Shown here piece after piece: positions 12,794 through 56,663 of a DNA stretch of 64,000 bases. Origin of the DNA: Teichococcus aerophilus (lineage in GTDB: Bacteria > Pseudomonadota > Alphaproteobacteria > Acetobacterales > Acetobacteraceae); assembly GCF_014490485.1 (NCBI RefSeq), contig NZ_JACTVA010000022.1, positions 1-64,000 of the forward strand, written 5' to 3'. A program made the position numbers and the translations under genes. Position 1 is the stretch's first letter, and each line of letters opens with the position of its first letter. The notes under the pieces are model-generated. The model ran no database searches and was not told where the DNA came from. It saw only the letters and a program-made list of their open reading frames with translations.

Positions 12794-13543
12794 ATGCCTG
12801 CCCTGACGCGACGCCATTTGCTGTCTGCCACAGCATTGGTCGCCTTTTCTTCCTCGGCCCTCGGCCGCAGCCTTACTGGAAGCCTCCCCTGGCAACCGAA
12901 TGAGGCCTATCCCCCCCAACTGGTTCGCCCTGGCGGCTGGTATTTCCTGACGGCCGATGAGGCCGCGATGGTGGATGCCATCGTCACCCGCTTCATCCCG
13001 GCCGACGATCTCAGCCCCAGCGGCAAGGATGCCGGCTGCACGGTGTTCATCGACCGGCAGTTGGCCGGGCCCTATGGCACGTATGAGTGGCTCTATATGA
13101 AGGGCCCGTTCTCGGCCAACCCGCTGCCGACGCAGGGTATCCAATCGCCCCTGGTGCCGCAGCAGCAATATCGGCAGGGCCTGGCGGCGCTGGCCGCGCA
13201 TTGCCGCGACCAGTTCGGCGGCAAGCGGTTCGAGCAGCTGACCGGCGACGAGCAGGACGGCGTGCTGCGCGCGATGGAGAAGAACGAGTTGCAGCTGGGC
13301 CAGCTGAAGCGGCCGTTGCTGGATGCGAAGATGTTCTTCGACCTGTTGCTGCAGAACACGATGGAAGGCTTCTTCGCCGACCCCGTCTATGGCGGCAACC
13401 GCGACATGGTCGGCTGGAAGATGGTCGGCTTCCCAGGCACGCGCTACGACTTCCGCGACGTGCTCGCCAATCCCGGTCAGGTCTACAACAAGCCGCCAGT
13501 CTCGATCATCGGCCGGCCCGCATGGAATGGGAGGCCCGCATGA
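12794..13543 (+). CDS. gluconate 2-dehydrogenase subunit 3-family protein (small subunit of GMC dehydrogenase)
   Basis: This 249-residue protein begins with a Tat signal (TRRHLLSATALVAFSSSALG). The remainder matches the subunit 3 family that co-folds with, and carries through the Tat system, the flavoprotein of membrane-bound gluconate, fructose or 2-ketogluconate dehydrogenases (FLTADEAAMVDAIVTRFIPA, DPVYGGNRDMVGWKMVGFPG). ATG 12794 follows AAGGA. The stop overlaps the start of the flavoprotein gene. The order small subunit, flavoprotein, cytochrome matches known three-component periplasmic dehydrogenases. Confidence 0.88.
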   Translation: MPALTRRHLLSATALVAFSSSALGRSLTGSLPWQPNEAYPPQLVRPGGWYFLTADEAAMVDAIVTRFIPADDLSPSGKDAGCTVFIDRQLAGPYGTYEWLYMKGPFSANPLPTQGIQSPLVPQQQYRQGLAALAAHCRDQFGGKRFEQLTGDEQDGVLRAMEKNELQLGQLKRPLLDAKMFFDLLLQNTMEGFFADPVYGGNRDMVGWKMVGFPGTRYDFRDVLANPGQVYNKPPVSIIGRPAWNGRPA

Positions 13544-51682: not shown

Positions 51683-51846
51683 CAAGCTGCTGCACTCGTA
51701 CCAGGTCATGAAAGCACAAGCATGGCATATCATGCCGGCGTCCCGACAGCCCCGGCGTGCCGCTTTCGTCAAGCAACCGGGATTTGCCGCCCGCGCCGCT
51801 TCTGCCGCATGCTGAGGCGAGGGAAACAGGCAGGAGCAGCAGCGCC

Positions 51847-52518
51847 GTGAGCGAGACAGAGCCAGCCGGAACACCCCTGCGCCTCGTCTTCGACGGCCAT
51901 GCCCTGCAGGCCCGGCCGGGCGTGTCGTTGCTGCAGGCCTGGATCGCCGCCGGGTTGCCGCTGACGGAGAATGTCGGGTGCATGGGGCAAGGCGTCTGCG
52001 GTGCCTGCCGCGTGCTGGTGCGGCGCCCGGGCGAGCGCATCGCCGGCACCGCCCTGGCCTGCGAGATGCCGGCCGAGGAAGGGATGCAGGTCTCCTTCAT
52101 CGACCATTTCCCGGCGCGGCGGCCGCATGCCTATGACCTCTCCGCCCTGACCGATAGCTGGTCCATCCCCGACCAGATCGACGCGGTGTTCCCCGAGGCG
52201 AAGCACTGCCGGCATTGCAGCGGCTGCGACCGTGCCTGCCCGAAGGGGATTCCGGTGCAGCGTATGGTCAACCTGGCGGCGGAGGGCCAGGTCTTCGCCG
52301 CGGCCGAGCTGTTCGATGCCTGCGTCATGTGCAACCTCTGCGTTGCCGCCTGCCCGGAACATATCGACCCGGCGCATCTGGGCCAGTTCACCCGGCGGAT
52401 GCACGCGGCGCTGACCCTGCGCCCGGCCGACCTGATGCAGCGCCTGCGGCAGATCGAGGCTGGCGAGCAGCCGATCGACCTCGACGCCCCGGGCGCCAGC
52501 CCGCCGGTGCAGACATGA
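51847..52518 (+). CDS. iron-sulfur protein: 2Fe-2S ferredoxin domain plus two 4Fe-4S motifs (SdhB/FrdB-like)
   Basis: The 223-residue protein has an N-terminal plant-type 2Fe-2S domain (CMGQGVCGAC, later ALAC). A C-terminal ferredoxin half has CRHCSGCDRACPKG and CVMCNLCVAACPEH. This layout resembles the Fe-S subunit of fumarate reductases and succinate dehydrogenases, though the second half is closer to a two-4Fe-4S ferredoxin. No membrane segment is present. It is followed with four-base overlaps by an FrdA-like flavoprotein and a NuoF-like protein, so it would wire electrons between NADH and the flavin active site. Start GTG 51847 follows AGGAG. Confidence 0.85.
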   Translation: MSETEPAGTPLRLVFDGHALQARPGVSLLQAWIAAGLPLTENVGCMGQGVCGACRVLVRRPGERIAGTALACEMPAEEGMQVSFIDHFPARRPHAYDLSALTDSWSIPDQIDAVFPEAKHCRHCSGCDRACPKGIPVQRMVNLAAEGQVFAAAELFDACVMCNLCVAACPEHIDPAHLGQFTRRMHAALTLRPADLMQRLRQIEAGEQPIDLDAPGASPPVQT

Positions 52519-54164
52519 GCGACGCGGGAATGACCGATGGGGGGATGAGCGGCGGCATCGGCTTCGCTGCCGCGCTGGCCGCCTGGGATGCGGCCGCGCC
52601 GGCGCCGGCCCGCGCCTGCGGCCTGAAGGTGGCGGACCTGCTGCGCGGCTTCCACCCGGACCACCGCCCTGGTGGCATGGTGCAACTGGTGGCGGGGCCG
52701 AATGAAGGCGCGCCGTGCCCGGCGCAGCTGGCGGCGCTGCTGCAATCGGACTCGTTGCTGGAGGATGTGGACCTCGCCGGGGCCACGATCCTGGACGCAG
52801 ATGTGCTGGTGCTGGGCGGCGGGGGCGCCGGCTGCGTCGCCGCGCTGGCCGCCGCGCGGGCGGGGGCACGCGTGTTGATGGCGACCAAGCTGCGCATGGG
52901 CGACGGCAATACCGTGATGGCCGAGGGCGGCATCCAGGCCGCCATCGGTGCCGAGGACAGCCTGCAACGGCATTTCGAGGATACGCTGCGCGCCGGCCAT
53001 TTCGCCGCCGACAAGGCGTTGGTCGCGGCGCTGGTGGGGGATGGGCCGGACGCCATACGCTGGTTGGTCCGCGAAGGCATGAGCTTCGACCTGGCGGATG
53101 AGCGGCAGCGGATGGGGGGCGCCCTGCTGCGCAAGAAGCCCGGCGGCGCCACGGCGGCGCGCCTGCTCTCCTACCGCGACTTCACCGGTCTGGAGTTGAT
53201 GCGGGCGTTGCGGGAGGCGGTGCTGCTGCAGCCCGGCATCAGCGTGCTGGACGGCCACCCGGCGCTGGAGCTGCTGACGGATGACCGCGGCCGTTGCGGC
53301 GGCGCGGCGTTGCAGGATCTGGGGCAGCGGCGGCTGGTGCTGGCGCGGGCCGGTGCCACCATCATGGCCACAGGCGGTGCCGGGCGGCTGCACCTGGCGG
53401 GCTTCCCCACCTCCAACCACTATGGCGCCACGGCGGATGGGCTGGTGCTGGCCTACCGTGCCGGCGCCCGGTTGCGGGAGATGGACAGCTTCCAGTTCCA
53501 CCCGACCGGCATTGCCTGGCCGCCGCATCTGGAAGGCACGCTGATCAGCGAGGCCGCGCGCTCCGCCGGGGCGCGGCTGGTCAATGGCCGGGGGGAGCGC
53601 TTCGTCGAGGAACTGGCGCCGCGCGATGTCGTCGCCTCCGCCATGTTGCGCGAACTGGCGGAAGGGCGCGGCGTCGGCCGCGACGGCAAGCTGGGCCTGT
53701 TCCTGGATACGCCGAGCCTGGAGCGCGAGCAGCCTGGCATTCTGGCGCAGCGGTTGCAGACGCTGTCGCACCTGGCCCACCGCGCGGGTTTCGACCCGGC
53801 GCGGGAACCTTTCCTGGTGCGGCCGACGCTGCATTACCAGAATGGCGGCATGGCCATCGATACCGATGGCCGCAGTGCCTTGCCCGGCCTGCTGGCGGCG
53901 GGCGAGGTGACTGGCGGCCTGCATGGCCGCAACCGCATGATGGGCAATGCGCTGCTGGAGCTGGTGGTGTTCGGCCGCCGCGCCGGTGCCAGCGCCGCCG
54001 CCGATGCGCGGCAGGAGCGCCCGCGCAACCTAGGGCTCAACCACCTGGCCGGCTGGCGGCGCGGTTTGCTGGCGGCGGGGCTAGGGCTGGAGGCCAAGGG
54101 CCCGCTGCTGTTCCCGCCCTATGGCAACGTCACACCCCAGGATCTGCGGAGGCACGCGGCATGA
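52515..54164 (+). CDS. FAD-binding flavoprotein of fumarate reductase/aspartate oxidase family
   Basis: The 549-residue protein has an unconserved N-terminal 90 residues, then the FAD motif DADVLVLGGGGAGCVAALAA and AEGGIQAAIG. Next come catalytic-domain signatures: MDSFQFHPTGIAWP, LISEAARSAGARLVNGRGER, LAPRDVVASAM, LHYQNGGMAIDTDG, and LAAGEVTGGLHGRNRMMGNA. The HPTG and PRDVV motifs mark the dicarboxylate site of FrdA, SdhA and NadB. No membrane anchor subunits are encoded, so this is not an ordinary respiratory complex II. Fumarate, a related enoate, or a reverse oxidation are all possible substrates. Confidence 0.85.
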   Translation: MSDAGMTDGGMSGGIGFAAALAAWDAAAPAPARACGLKVADLLRGFHPDHRPGGMVQLVAGPNEGAPCPAQLAALLQSDSLLEDVDLAGATILDADVLVLGGGGAGCVAALAAARAGARVLMATKLRMGDGNTVMAEGGIQAAIGAEDSLQRHFEDTLRAGHFAADKALVAALVGDGPDAIRWLVREGMSFDLADERQRMGGALLRKKPGGATAARLLSYRDFTGLELMRALREAVLLQPGISVLDGHPALELLTDDRGRCGGAALQDLGQRRLVLARAGATIMATGGAGRLHLAGFPTSNHYGATADGLVLAYRAGARLREMDSFQFHPTGIAWPPHLEGTLISEAARSAGARLVNGRGERFVEELAPRDVVASAMLRELAEGRGVGRDGKLGLFLDTPSLEREQPGILAQRLQTLSHLAHRAGFDPAREPFLVRPTLHYQNGGMAIDTDGRSALPGLLAAGEVTGGLHGRNRMMGNALLELVVFGRRAGASAAADARQERPRNLGLNHLAGWRRGLLAAGLGLEAKGPLLFPPYGNVTPQDLRRHAA

Positions 54165-55396
54165 AGGTGCTGACCGACCCCGCCCTGTGCGTCGGCGCCG
54201 ACCTGGCGGCCTGGATGGCACGCGGCGGCGGCGAGGGGCTGTCGCGCGCGCTGGCGGAGCCGGCTTCCATCATCCCGGTGCTGGAGGCCGCCGGGCTGCG
54301 CGGCCTGGGCGGCGCCGGCTTTCCCACCCACCGCAAGTGGTCAGCCGTGGCGGCTCAGCCGGGGCCGGAACGCTGGATCATCTGCAACGGCAACGAGGAT
54401 GAGCCCGGCACCTTCAAGGACCGTTTCCTACTGGCCGAGACGCCGCATCAGGTGATCGAGGGCGCGCTGATCGCTGCCGTGGCGACCGGGGCGGCGCAGG
54501 TGGTGCTCTACGTCAATCCGCGCGAGGCGGCGGGGGTGTTGGCCTGCCACGCGGCAGTGGCGGCGTGGCAGGCGCATCCGCTGGCCGCCGCCGTCTCCGC
54601 TGCCATCGGGCAGGCGCTGTGCCTGCGCGTGGTGGAAAGCTCCGGCCACTATATCGGTGGGGAGGAGACGGGCGCCGTCTCCAGCGTTATGGGCGGGTTC
54701 CCGTTCCCCCGCCTGAAGCCGCCCTTTCCGTTCGAGCAAGGGGTGAACGACCGGCCAACGCTGATCAACAACGTCGAGACTCTGGCGCATGTGGCCCACA
54801 TCCTCCGCCATGGCGCCGCATGGTACCGGGCGCTGGGGCTGGGCGACGCCGCCGGGACCAAGCTGTACTCGCTCTCCGGCGACGTGCTGCGGCCCGGGCT
54901 GCATGAGTTGCCGATGGGCACGCCGCTGCGTGAGCTGGTGTTCGTGCATGGCGGCGGCATGCTGGCGGGCAAGGCGTTCAAGGCGGTGTTCACCGGCGGC
55001 CCTTCCAATACCTTGCTGACCGGGGCGGACCTGGACGTGGCGCTGGATTTCGAGAGCGTACGCGCCCGGGGTTCCCGCCTCGGCACCGGGGCGATGATCG
55101 TGGTGGGGGAGGGCACCAGTATCCTGCGCAAGACCGCGGAATACGTGGCCTTCTTCGCCGCCAATTCCTGCGGCCAGTGCCCGCCCTGCAAGATCGGCAC
55201 CCACCAGGTCTCCCGCATTCTGGAGCGGCTGGACACTGGCGCTGGGCGGATTGGCGATCTGGAGGCGCTGGAGAACCTGTCCCACATGCTGCCGGGCAGC
55301 GGGCGCTGTGGCCTGGTGGATGGCGCGGCGACGGTGCTGGCCAGTTCGCTGGAGACCTTCCGGGCGGAATACGAGGCGGCCTTGCCGAGAGGCTGA
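54161..55396 (+). CDS. NuoF-like NADH-binding flavo-iron-sulfur protein
   Basis: The 411-residue protein resembles the 51-kDa (NuoF/HoxF) family: RGLGGAGFPTHRKWSAVA, ICNGNEDEPGTFKDRFLL, HYIGGEETGAVSSVMGGFPF, NNVETLAHVAHIL, and the 4Fe-4S motif CGQCPPCKIGTHQ with a later Cys (GSGRCGLVDG). These bind FMN, NADH and one 4Fe-4S cluster. It overlaps the flavoprotein gene by four bases and no other complex I gene is nearby, so it is a dedicated NAD(H) module for the FrdA-like enzyme. The direction of electron flow cannot be read from sequence. Confidence 0.88.
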   Translation: MKVLTDPALCVGADLAAWMARGGGEGLSRALAEPASIIPVLEAAGLRGLGGAGFPTHRKWSAVAAQPGPERWIICNGNEDEPGTFKDRFLLAETPHQVIEGALIAAVATGAAQVVLYVNPREAAGVLACHAAVAAWQAHPLAAAVSAAIGQALCLRVVESSGHYIGGEETGAVSSVMGGFPFPRLKPPFPFEQGVNDRPTLINNVETLAHVAHILRHGAAWYRALGLGDAAGTKLYSLSGDVLRPGLHELPMGTPLRELVFVHGGGMLAGKAFKAVFTGGPSNTLLTGADLDVALDFESVRARGSRLGTGAMIVVGEGTSILRKTAEYVAFFAANSCGQCPPCKIGTHQVSRILERLDTGAGRIGDLEALENLSHMLPGSGRCGLVDGAATVLASSLETFRAEYEAALPRG

Positions 55397-55416
55397 CCCA
55401 TGCCGGGGCTTTAAAC

Positions 55417-55450
55417 TCTGGACTTCGTCCTGATATAGGCATAGTCCAGA
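55417..55450. promoter_or_regulatory. inverted repeat upstream of the toxin-antitoxin pair
   Basis: TCTGGACT and AGTCCAGA, eight bases each, are separated by 18 bases containing TGATATAGGC, in a 74-base gap before the antitoxin start at 55471. Toxin-antitoxin operons are usually repressed through such sites by the antitoxin, so this is a probable operator with the promoter between its arms. Confidence 0.5.
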
Positions 55451-55470
55451 TCCGGACATGGGAGGCTCTG

Positions 55471-55995
55471 ATGCCCCAGACTGTTGCCACTGCCAGCCAG
55501 GACAACGCCGCCGAGCCGCGCCTGGACCCCGCCCGCTTCGCGCCGGAGAACCGGCGGCGGTTGAGCGCGCCGGGGCTGCGCACCTTCCTGGCCATAGCGG
55601 ATCTCTGGGGCCTGGACGAGACGCAGCGGCGGCTGGTGCTGGGCTATCCCTCCCGCTCCACCTTCCACAGCTGGGCCCGGACGGCGCGGGAGCATGGCAG
55701 CCTGACGCTGGATGTGGATGTATTGACGCGGATCTCCGCGCTGCTGGGCATCCATCAGGCGCTGGGCGTGCTGCACGACATTGAGCAGGAGGCGGTGGCC
55801 TGGCTGCGCATGCCGCACGACGCCACCGTTTTCGGCGGCCGCCCGCCGCTGGAGTTGCTGACCAACGGCACGCAGGACGGGCTGATGACGGTGCGGCGCT
55901 TCCTCGATGCCGCGCGGGGTGGGCTGTACATGCCGCCAAACGCCATCGACCGAGACTTCCGGCCGGCGACCGACGCGGATCTGGTCATCTCTTGA
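55471..55995 (+). CDS. Xre/MbcA/ParS-type antitoxin
   Basis: The 174-residue protein has an N-terminal Xre-like helix region (about 35-110; LRTFLAIADLWGLDETQRRL, LTRISALLGIHQALGVL). The C-terminal MbcA/ParS toxin-binding segment is GGRPPLELLTNGTQDGLMTV, then FLDAARGG. It neutralises the RES toxin encoded next and likely autoregulates the operon. The toxin start TTG overlaps its stop (TTGA), the usual antitoxin-first coupled order. Confidence 0.85.
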   Translation: MPQTVATASQDNAAEPRLDPARFAPENRRRLSAPGLRTFLAIADLWGLDETQRRLVLGYPSRSTFHSWARTAREHGSLTLDVDVLTRISALLGIHQALGVLHDIEQEAVAWLRMPHDATVFGGRPPLELLTNGTQDGLMTVRRFLDAARGGLYMPPNAIDRDFRPATDADLVIS

Positions 55996-56663
55996 CCGAG
56001 GCCTTCGCGCCGGCACCGGCGCCCAGCTACCGGCTCATCCCCTCCCGCTTCCCGCCGATCGGCCTGTTCGACACGGTGGCGACGGCGGCGGATGCGGCGG
56101 CGGTCATGGAACTGGCCGGCTGGACCAATGACCGACTGGTGGCCGACCGCATCTGGCGCCTGCCGGCCGACGAGTGGGTGTATGGGCGTGCCAATGCCAG
56201 CGTGGTCATGGCAACCTTCCTGCACGTGCCGCCCGGTGGTGCCCGCTTCAACGGGCCGGAGTTGGGCGCCTGGTACGCCGCCGCGGCATTGCCGACCGCG
56301 GCCTTCGAGGTCGCGCACCATCTGCGGCGGGAAGCGGTGGCGCGCCGGCTGCCCAGCCTGCGCCGCACCTACCGCACCTACCGGGCGGAACTGGCCGGCG
56401 ACTACCTGGACATACGCGGCCAGCAGGCACGGCGCGCCGACCTCTATGCGCCGGACAGCTACGCCGCGTCCCAACCCTGGGGAGAGGGGGTGCGCGCGGG
56501 TGGTGGCGCCGGCATCCTGTTCGACAGCATCAGGCATGTCGGTGGCCTCTGCGCCGTGGCCTACCGGCCGCGCAACATCCGCGACGTGATGCAGGCCGAC
56601 CACTGGGAGCTTTCGGTGGAGGCCGCCACGCGGCGGGTTGGGTTGCGACGGCTGACGGCCTGA
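55992..56663 (+). CDS. RES-domain toxin
   Basis: The 223-residue protein belongs to the RES family, ADP-ribosyltransferase-like toxins (such as MbcT) that consume NAD+. Seen are YRLIPSRFPPIGLFD with the N-terminal Arg, GGARFNGPELGAWYAAAALP, TAAFEVAHH with the Glu, and LFDSIRHVGGLCAVAYRP near the end. Arg, Tyr and Glu positions expected for catalysis are present. It is translated by coupling from the antitoxin. Start is TTG 55992. Confidence 0.85.
   Translation: MTEAFAPAPAPSYRLIPSRFPPIGLFDTVATAADAAAVMELAGWTNDRLVADRIWRLPADEWVYGRANASVVMATFLHVPPGGARFNGPELGAWYAAAALPTAAFEVAHHLRREAVARRLPSLRRTYRTYRAELAGDYLDIRGQQARRADLYAPDSYAASQPWGEGVRAGGGAGILFDSIRHVGGLCAVAYRPRNIRDVMQADHWELSVEAATRRVGLRRLTA

Follow-up and report, generated by a model that had tools for sequence, protein, structure and literature searches.

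A compact three-gene operon predicted to encode a soluble NADH:fumarate oxidoreductase in Teichococcus aerophilus and other bacteria

The stretch of DNA analyzed here, referred to as the window, comprises 64,000 nucleotides of contig NZ_JACTVA010000022.1 from Teichococcus aerophilus (assembly GCF_014490485.1). At positions 51847-55396 it contains three genes, termed A, B and C, all on the forward strand, for which we propose a joint function as a soluble oxidoreductase linking reduced nicotinamide adenine dinucleotide (NADH) to fumarate. As described in the initial annotation of this DNA, the genes overlap by four bases, with ATGA at both junctions, and Pfam domains agree with its assignment of the products as a protein with one 2Fe-2S and two 4Fe-4S centers, an FrdA/NadB-type flavoprotein and a NuoF-like NADH module. 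The features are the following (FAD, flavin adenine dinucleotide):

51847 to 52518 (stop), + strand: gene A, GTG start, iron-sulfur subunit of 223 amino acids with Pfam 2Fe-2S and 4Fe-4S dicluster domains
52515 to 54164 (stop), + strand: gene B, ATG start, predicted catalytic FAD flavoprotein of 549 amino acids, Pfam FAD_binding_2 with 237 bits
54161 to 55396 (stop), + strand: gene C, ATG start, NuoF-like NADH-oxidizing subunit of 411 amino acids, Pfam Complex1_51K and NADH_4Fe-4S
51832 to 51836, + strand: AGGAG, likely ribosome-binding site of gene A, read from the sequence, ten bases before the GTG start
54148 to 54152, + strand: GGAGG, likely ribosome-binding site of gene C, read from the sequence, within gene B
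52638 to 52790, + strand: N-terminal module of gene B (residues about 42-92), pattern LL..HPD.......L..G.N.G.......A.......

A gene-by-gene scan restricted to the 49.8-59.5 kb part of the window (ten genes, seven besides A, B and C) revealed neither a membrane anchor nor any other complex I or II gene, in line with what had been stated earlier for the surroundings of the operon, and a NuoE-like gene was not detected by Pfam in or beside it. The product of gene A contains twelve cysteines (C45, C51, C54 and C72; C121, C124, C127 and C131; C159, C162, C165 and C169), from the motifs of which we infer one plant-type [2Fe-2S] and two [4Fe-4S] clusters. Eleven of them are present in all of 65 A proteins and Cys 45 in 64; these sequences stem from 66 A-B-C loci including the window, with some genomes represented twice. 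All twelve are also invariant in an alignment of 30 A proteins that includes loci with A and B only and into which 29 of the 80 loci introduced below were entered. Neither four-cysteine motif lacks a ligand, and a [4Fe-4S] center is thus expected at the last position, where quinone-linked FrdB has a [3Fe-4S] center. A Foldseek search with a model of A yielded only partial matches to RnfC, FrdB and NuoG-like chains (template modeling score to query 0.20-0.31) and no clear fold match.

In the flavoprotein, the HPTG and PRDVV motifs are intact, as noticed earlier, and correspond to residues 329-332 and 369-373. Alignment with FrdA, SdhA and NadB chains assigns six residues of B to the dicarboxylate site, namely H329, S345, E346, R370, H440 and R474, the counterparts of which in FrdA we take to be H232, T244, E245, R287, H355 and R390. 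The B protein of the window was aligned with those of 40 of the 80 loci, and H329, E346, R370, H440 and R474 each occur in 41/41, such that the dicarboxylate-binding arginines and histidines on which the initial annotation had made its proposal depend are in place. The comparison with FrdA and NadB that it had suggested gives the same picture for the fold: the site residues align, and the best match of an AlphaFold2 model of B (mean pLDDT, i.e., predicted local distance difference test, of 86) is E. coli FrdA, 1kf6, with an E-value of 2.3e-36. Beyond about residue 501 of 549, family matches cease, suggesting that most of the FrdA/SdhA C-terminal domain is missing. The position of the FAD-binding histidine of FrdA is occupied by asparagine (N132 in the window) in 41/41 proteins, and the FAD of B should therefore be bound non-covalently. 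Work on E. coli FrdA indicates that non-covalent FAD favors reduction over oxidation.

On the level of family models, B matches 48 NCBIfam families, and in none of the 25 that were listed does its score reach the cut-off; the best score among these 25 was obtained for TfrA with 324 bits vs. a cut-off of 718 bits. Its membership in the same superfamily and a score of 286 bits with the NadB model could be taken to indicate an SdhA-like or NadB-like enzyme that oxidizes succinate or aspartate and reduces NAD. We consider this very improbable: the position of NadB Glu121, a residue that handles the amino group of the substrate, is taken by A, G, P or V in 41/41 B proteins and never by Glu, family cut-offs are missed, asparagine replaces the histidine for covalent FAD, and electron transfer from succinate (about +30 mV) to NAD+ (-320 mV) is strongly uphill according to textbook values. 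An identity of B as L-aspartate oxidase was rejected on account of the missing Glu and the low scores. With complex II, i.e., FrdABCD and SdhABCD, B has the catalytic fold and residues in common, whereas the operon has no anchor, the covalent-FAD histidine is lacking, the family matches stop short of the C-terminus and an N-terminal module of its own is present. Membership in complex II was rejected based on the first two of these points.

This N-terminal module had initially been described as part of a 90-residue unconserved N-terminus, a view that does not hold. Residues about 42-92 are conserved family-wide, with P48, D49 and G61 in 41/41, G65 in 40/41, H47 in 39/41 and N63 in 36/41 sequences, and are shared from Nitrospirota to Clostridia and Pseudomonadota, while the preceding stretch is variable. 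The module has no match in Pfam, and of 93 PDB chains the 60 listed start to align only at profile position 58 or beyond, past most of it. As judged from these comparisons it is specific for the family, and its location directly ahead of the FAD domain suggests that it may serve as a docking module for A.

Gene C encodes a site for flavin mononucleotide (FMN) and NADH and an N3-type [4Fe-4S] cluster (C337, C340, C343, C383) with the signature NGNEDEPGTFKD. The four cysteines are present in 64-65 of 66 loci, with some rows cut by contig ends. While the core for FMN and the N3-type cluster is common to C and NuoF of complex I, C scores 364.7 bits with the NuoF equivalog TIGR01959 and thus fails the cut-off of 558.65 bits, and nuoA-N genes are absent among the ten genes scanned. 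Nine C-type chains feature N-G/A-NEDEPGT, GLGG or GMGG, and YIGGEE, as opposed to, e.g., NADESEPGT, GRGG and YICGEE in eleven other NuoF-like chains taken from the same genome, Nitrospirota and Clostridia. Where C has NGNEDEPGTFKD, complex I-like chains have NADESEPGTFKD, with Asn at a position occupied in the eleven others by Asp, Gly or Ala. This Asn position could serve as a marker for further operons of this kind. In the metagenome-assembled genome (MAG) of Gallionella that contains locus L064, C carries a Ser-rich insertion of about 46 residues ahead of the FPFPR motif.

To obtain an overview of the distribution of the gene set, genome contigs were scanned with B in a profile-guided manner, and the best 80 of 583 confirmed matches, a selection that leans to near relatives, were evaluated with genes regarded as linked when located within 800 bases. 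Although B was the only query, the three-gene order recurred at 53 of the 80 loci, more often than chance would give; such a recurrence is what the initial annotation had proposed to look for in other genomes. A further 21 loci are of the A-B type, one is B-C with A lost at the contig end, and at five B stands alone. In two of these five A lies 822 and 973 bases away, a further two are close to contig ends, and for the last, Thiomargarita L058, a C with 61% identity is located on another contig. A-B-C loci were found in Roseomonas-like bacteria, Burkholderiales, Pseudomonas, Neisseria, Gallionella, other Nitrosomonadales and sulfur-oxidizing symbionts as well as in single records of Chloroflexota, Actinomycetota and Myxococcota. 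A-B loci stem from Nitrospirota, Bacillota, one Bacteroidota MAG and Ilyobacter (Fusobacteriota). In the window, B bears the HPD...GxNxG module and A is located directly upstream, which places the set in what we define here as the A-B family, with loci in Nitrospirota, Bacillota, Fusobacteriota and Pseudomonadota.

Within the family of the window organism, B (E <1e-90) is present in 10 of 150 genomes including the window, nine times as A-B-C and once as A-B. Locus L136 (genome G143) from this family is of the A-B and not the A-B-C type and, inspected by eye, resides in an Hdr-like cluster. A phylum-wide draw yielded B (E <1e-110) in 31 of 398 genomes, again including the window, and the 19 further loci obtained from this draw are of the A-B type in 18 cases, the last being a B at the edge of a contig. 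A quick maximum-likelihood tree was built from 102 B sequences (67 rows labeled A-B-C, two of them B-C, 28 labeled A-B and seven without label; long branches were flagged). A single change on it accounts for the A-B-C vs. A-B labels, and the dividing branch received a Shimodaira-Hasegawa-like approximate likelihood ratio (SH-aLRT) support of 87. Distances of A, B and C correlate with r 0.90-0.94 over 65 loci; this was not used as evidence because shared ancestry gives the same result. Among plasmid records searched with tblastn, the seven with B at >60% identity are the same seven that have C at >60%, the next C match at an E limit of 1e-60 being only 41% identical. None of 34 phage records with a B match covers 80% of B, and all are below 60% identity. 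In four Nitrospirota genomes (L075, L080, L083, L092), the best C matches are only 39-43% identical; here, B occurs with A and genes of the type used in the reductive tricarboxylic acid (TCA) cycle, and without a close C homolog.

The genes surrounding the set in its relatives point to fumarate and succinate. In locus L138 of the same phylum, malate dehydrogenase, fumarase alpha, fumarase beta, A, B, SucC, SucD, KorA and KorB follow each other in this order (malate dehydrogenase and fumarase genes were scored, SucC to KorB assigned by eye). The order A, B, SucC, SucD, KorA, KorB is also present in L135, where SucC to KorB were scored, and by eye in L137 and L139, likewise of this phylum. In Nitrospirota, A-B is accompanied by SucC, SucD or ATP-citrate-synthase-like proteins, aconitase and monomeric isocitrate dehydrogenase, and in Ilyobacter and Clostridia by aspartate ammonia-lyase or FumC, Hdr/Flx-like genes and, in some cases, an Asp-Al_Ex permease. 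For the three-gene type, 54 loci (53 A-B-C and one B-C) were scored. Within 3.5 kb, a DASS symporter is encoded at 17/54, KorA at 14/54, KorB at 13/54, malate dehydrogenase at 4/54, DctA and TctC at 2/54 each, and FumC and SucC at 1/54 each. None of these eight occurs in the remaining 367 kb of the 54 loci (333 kb being near), and in a positive control a query known to reside in the far part was found there. As the loci are related, the counts are not independent of each other; the DASS gene, however, is located upstream, downstream or divergently and does thus not reflect one inherited arrangement. Further instances are a DctA-like SDF symporter at L008 and FumC at L009 and L044. At L144 from the family of the window organism, a DASS gene 83% identical to that of L020 follows C, and a gene for succinyl-CoA:acetate CoA-transferase ScpC (833.9 bits vs. 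a cut-off of 500) is divergent from A. Downstream of A-B-C in Paraburkholderia caribensis (L007), positions 12906-13301 hold a tautomerase-like open reading frame of 131 amino acids, identified by eye.

Given KorA-type genes within 3.5 kb of 14/54 loci and the A-B pair within Hdr/Flx-like operons of Ilyobacter and Clostridia, flavin-based electron bifurcation has to be weighed, in which oxidation of NADH by fumarate would be coupled to reduction of ferredoxin feeding a 2-oxoglutarate:ferredoxin oxidoreductase. For such a context, bifurcation is proposed in the accessible parts of PMC6315080 and PMC7282089. Moreover, C scores not only with complex I chains but also with NuoF-type chains from bifurcating hydrogenases and transhydrogenases. 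Bifurcating HydABC and StnABC combine a NuoF-like chain bearing extra Fe-S domains with a NuoE-like chain, and the bifurcating-type chains compared here have 470-630 residues, most of them at least 584. C, on the other hand, is a bare core of 411 residues not accompanied by a NuoE-like subunit, and the partial POR_N match in the window genome (75/231 positions) does not provide a clear consumer of ferredoxin. A bifurcating role is unlikely on these grounds, and so is the more specific proposal of a three-subunit NADH:fumarate/ferredoxin reductase that feeds the adjacent 2-oxoglutarate:ferredoxin oxidoreductase in bacteria with a reductive TCA cycle and was passed on as a cassette to heterotrophs.

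Taken together, we favor A-B-C as a soluble NADH:fumarate oxidoreductase, to which we assign a probability of roughly 80%. The initial annotation had predicted a soluble NAD(H)-linked dicarboxylate or enoate reductase, possibly an NADH:fumarate reductase; active-site residues, predicted cofactors and neighboring genes are all consistent with this prediction, and the gene context narrows the substrate to fumarate/succinate. We infer a complex in which C would oxidize NADH at its FMN and hand over single electrons via its [4Fe-4S] cluster to A; the [2Fe-2S] and the two [4Fe-4S] clusters of A would carry them, presumably in this order, to the non-covalent FAD of B, and B would convert fumarate into succinate with Arg370 as the proton donor. 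As no membrane anchor is present, the step would conserve no energy by itself, and the enzyme would act as a sink for NADH or a supply of succinate alongside the complex II of the genome. The latter (5.66 Mb, 140 contigs) encodes complex II on contig C13, where an SdhA match lies beside two Sdh_cyt genes, the only Sdh_cyt matches genome-wide; the only other NuoF-like match of the genome, with complex I-like motifs, resides on the same contig. A-B-C is thus additional to both. On the B tree, the nearest named relatives of the window are Roseicella and Roseomonas, labeled Roseomonadaceae there; a Pseudoroseomonas record from another search is labeled Acetobacteraceae.

Several observations weigh against this assignment. 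FrdA-like flavoproteins include reductases of other enoates, and the FrdA T244 position is Ser in the window (T in 26/41, S in 15/41 B proteins). At 21/54 loci none of DASS, DctA, FumC, KorA, KorB and SucC is present within 3.5 kb; 8 of these 21 are on contigs with a shorter flank. The neighbors in the window itself, according to Pfam a divergent MipA-like protein, an Xre/RES toxin-antitoxin pair, a PfkB kinase and a TctC-type binding protein, are uninformative with regard to fumarate. A full-length 2-oxoacid:acceptor oxidoreductase was not found in the window genome, and the reductive TCA role in relatives does therefore not carry over. Finally, no FNR-like site is present upstream in the window, the best candidate having four mismatches. 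Among 67 upstream stretches from related loci, FNR-type sites with at most one mismatch occur in 6 (1.25 expected) and with at most two in 19 (9.5 expected); given the relatedness of the rows and the mismatches in the window, nothing is concluded from this survey for the latter. The Xre/MbcA antitoxin and RES toxin pair lies immediately 3' of the operon (window positions 55177-56663).

The Ser for Thr exchange in 15/41 sequences, the variation in substrate among FrdA-like enzymes and the range of di- and tricarboxylates covered by the neighboring transporter classes DASS and TctC would also fit the same electron chain acting on another dicarboxylate or enoate, such as mesaconate, maleate or aconitate, in the heterotrophic A-B-C lineage. 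However, the five charged or imidazole residues of the site are the same across reductive TCA-type, fermentative and heterotrophic lineages, and FumC, DctA-like and ScpC neighbors speak for fumarate and succinate, such that we regard a different substrate as quite unlikely.

Among the closest known systems is a soluble NADH-dependent fumarate reductase from Hydrogenobacter thermophilus TK-6, which Miura et al. in 2008 reportedly found to consist of five subunits encoded by scattered genes. It is reported to be soluble, with NADH as the donor, an FrdA-like catalytic subunit and a role in the reductive TCA cycle, and A-B-C resembles it by sequence in having a NuoF-like C and no anchor in the operon. 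As compared to the five subunits reported there, the operon described here comprises three overlapping genes; no search aimed at unlinked further subunits was made. With TfrAB, the thiol:fumarate reductase of methanogens, B achieves its best listed NCBIfam score, which is far below the cut-off as given above, and the CCG cysteine-rich domain expected for TfrAB has no match in A in the Pfam scan.

Fumarate reductases resembling the A-B pair have already been proposed in print. For Pseudoclostridium thermosuccinogenes, PMC7282089 mentions a putative fumarate reductase encoded next to Flx-Hdr, citing Koendjbiharie and van Kranenburg (2019 preprint), while PMC6315080 reports that tubeworm symbionts and their relatives carry tfrAB, genes for a putative thiol:fumarate reductase, in between flx-hdr and korABCD genes. 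The Clostridia A-B loci share with these systems, as far as the accessible text describes them, the layout of fumarase, Flx-Hdr, a two-gene fumarate reductase and a putative exporter, and the published enzymes very probably belong to the same A-B family. Their donor module is Flx-Hdr, in contrast to the NuoF-like subunit in the A-B-C operon. Portions of PMC4914600 report a Thiomargarita frdA with korAB and an fdrA/sdhA gene near hdrA, and in the Nitrospira model outlined in the available part of PMC8407350 fumarate reduction proceeds through succinate dehydrogenase. The A-B pair next to SucCD in Nitrospirota is another candidate for this step. Cupriavidus metallidurans CH34, the megaplasmid of which holds A-B-C (L008), possesses a NuoF homolog apart from complex I, Rmet_4300, for which the accessible text of PMC2864759 states no role; Rmet_4300 may be gene C of L008. 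Neither a description of the compact A-B-C operon with an NADH subunit of its own, nor an assay of this form, nor a characterized family with exactly this three-gene set, which would have refuted the initial proposal, was found in the literature searched, from which most subscription papers and bioRxiv preprints were out of reach.

As a rule, the reduction of fumarate depends on quinols of the membrane. A compact, soluble form fed by NADH and occurring as a three-gene unit in heterotrophs as well as chemolithoautotrophs would enable bacteria with a reductive TCA cycle to reduce fumarate from NADH, and in such organisms the enzyme would supply succinate to SucCD and KorAB. For the window organism, our guess is a sink for NADH or a source of succinate under oxygen limitation. 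One catalytic pair, A-B, is found with different electron-donor modules, and the proposed role would give orphan NuoF homologs a function and make a small soluble enzyme available for succinate production.

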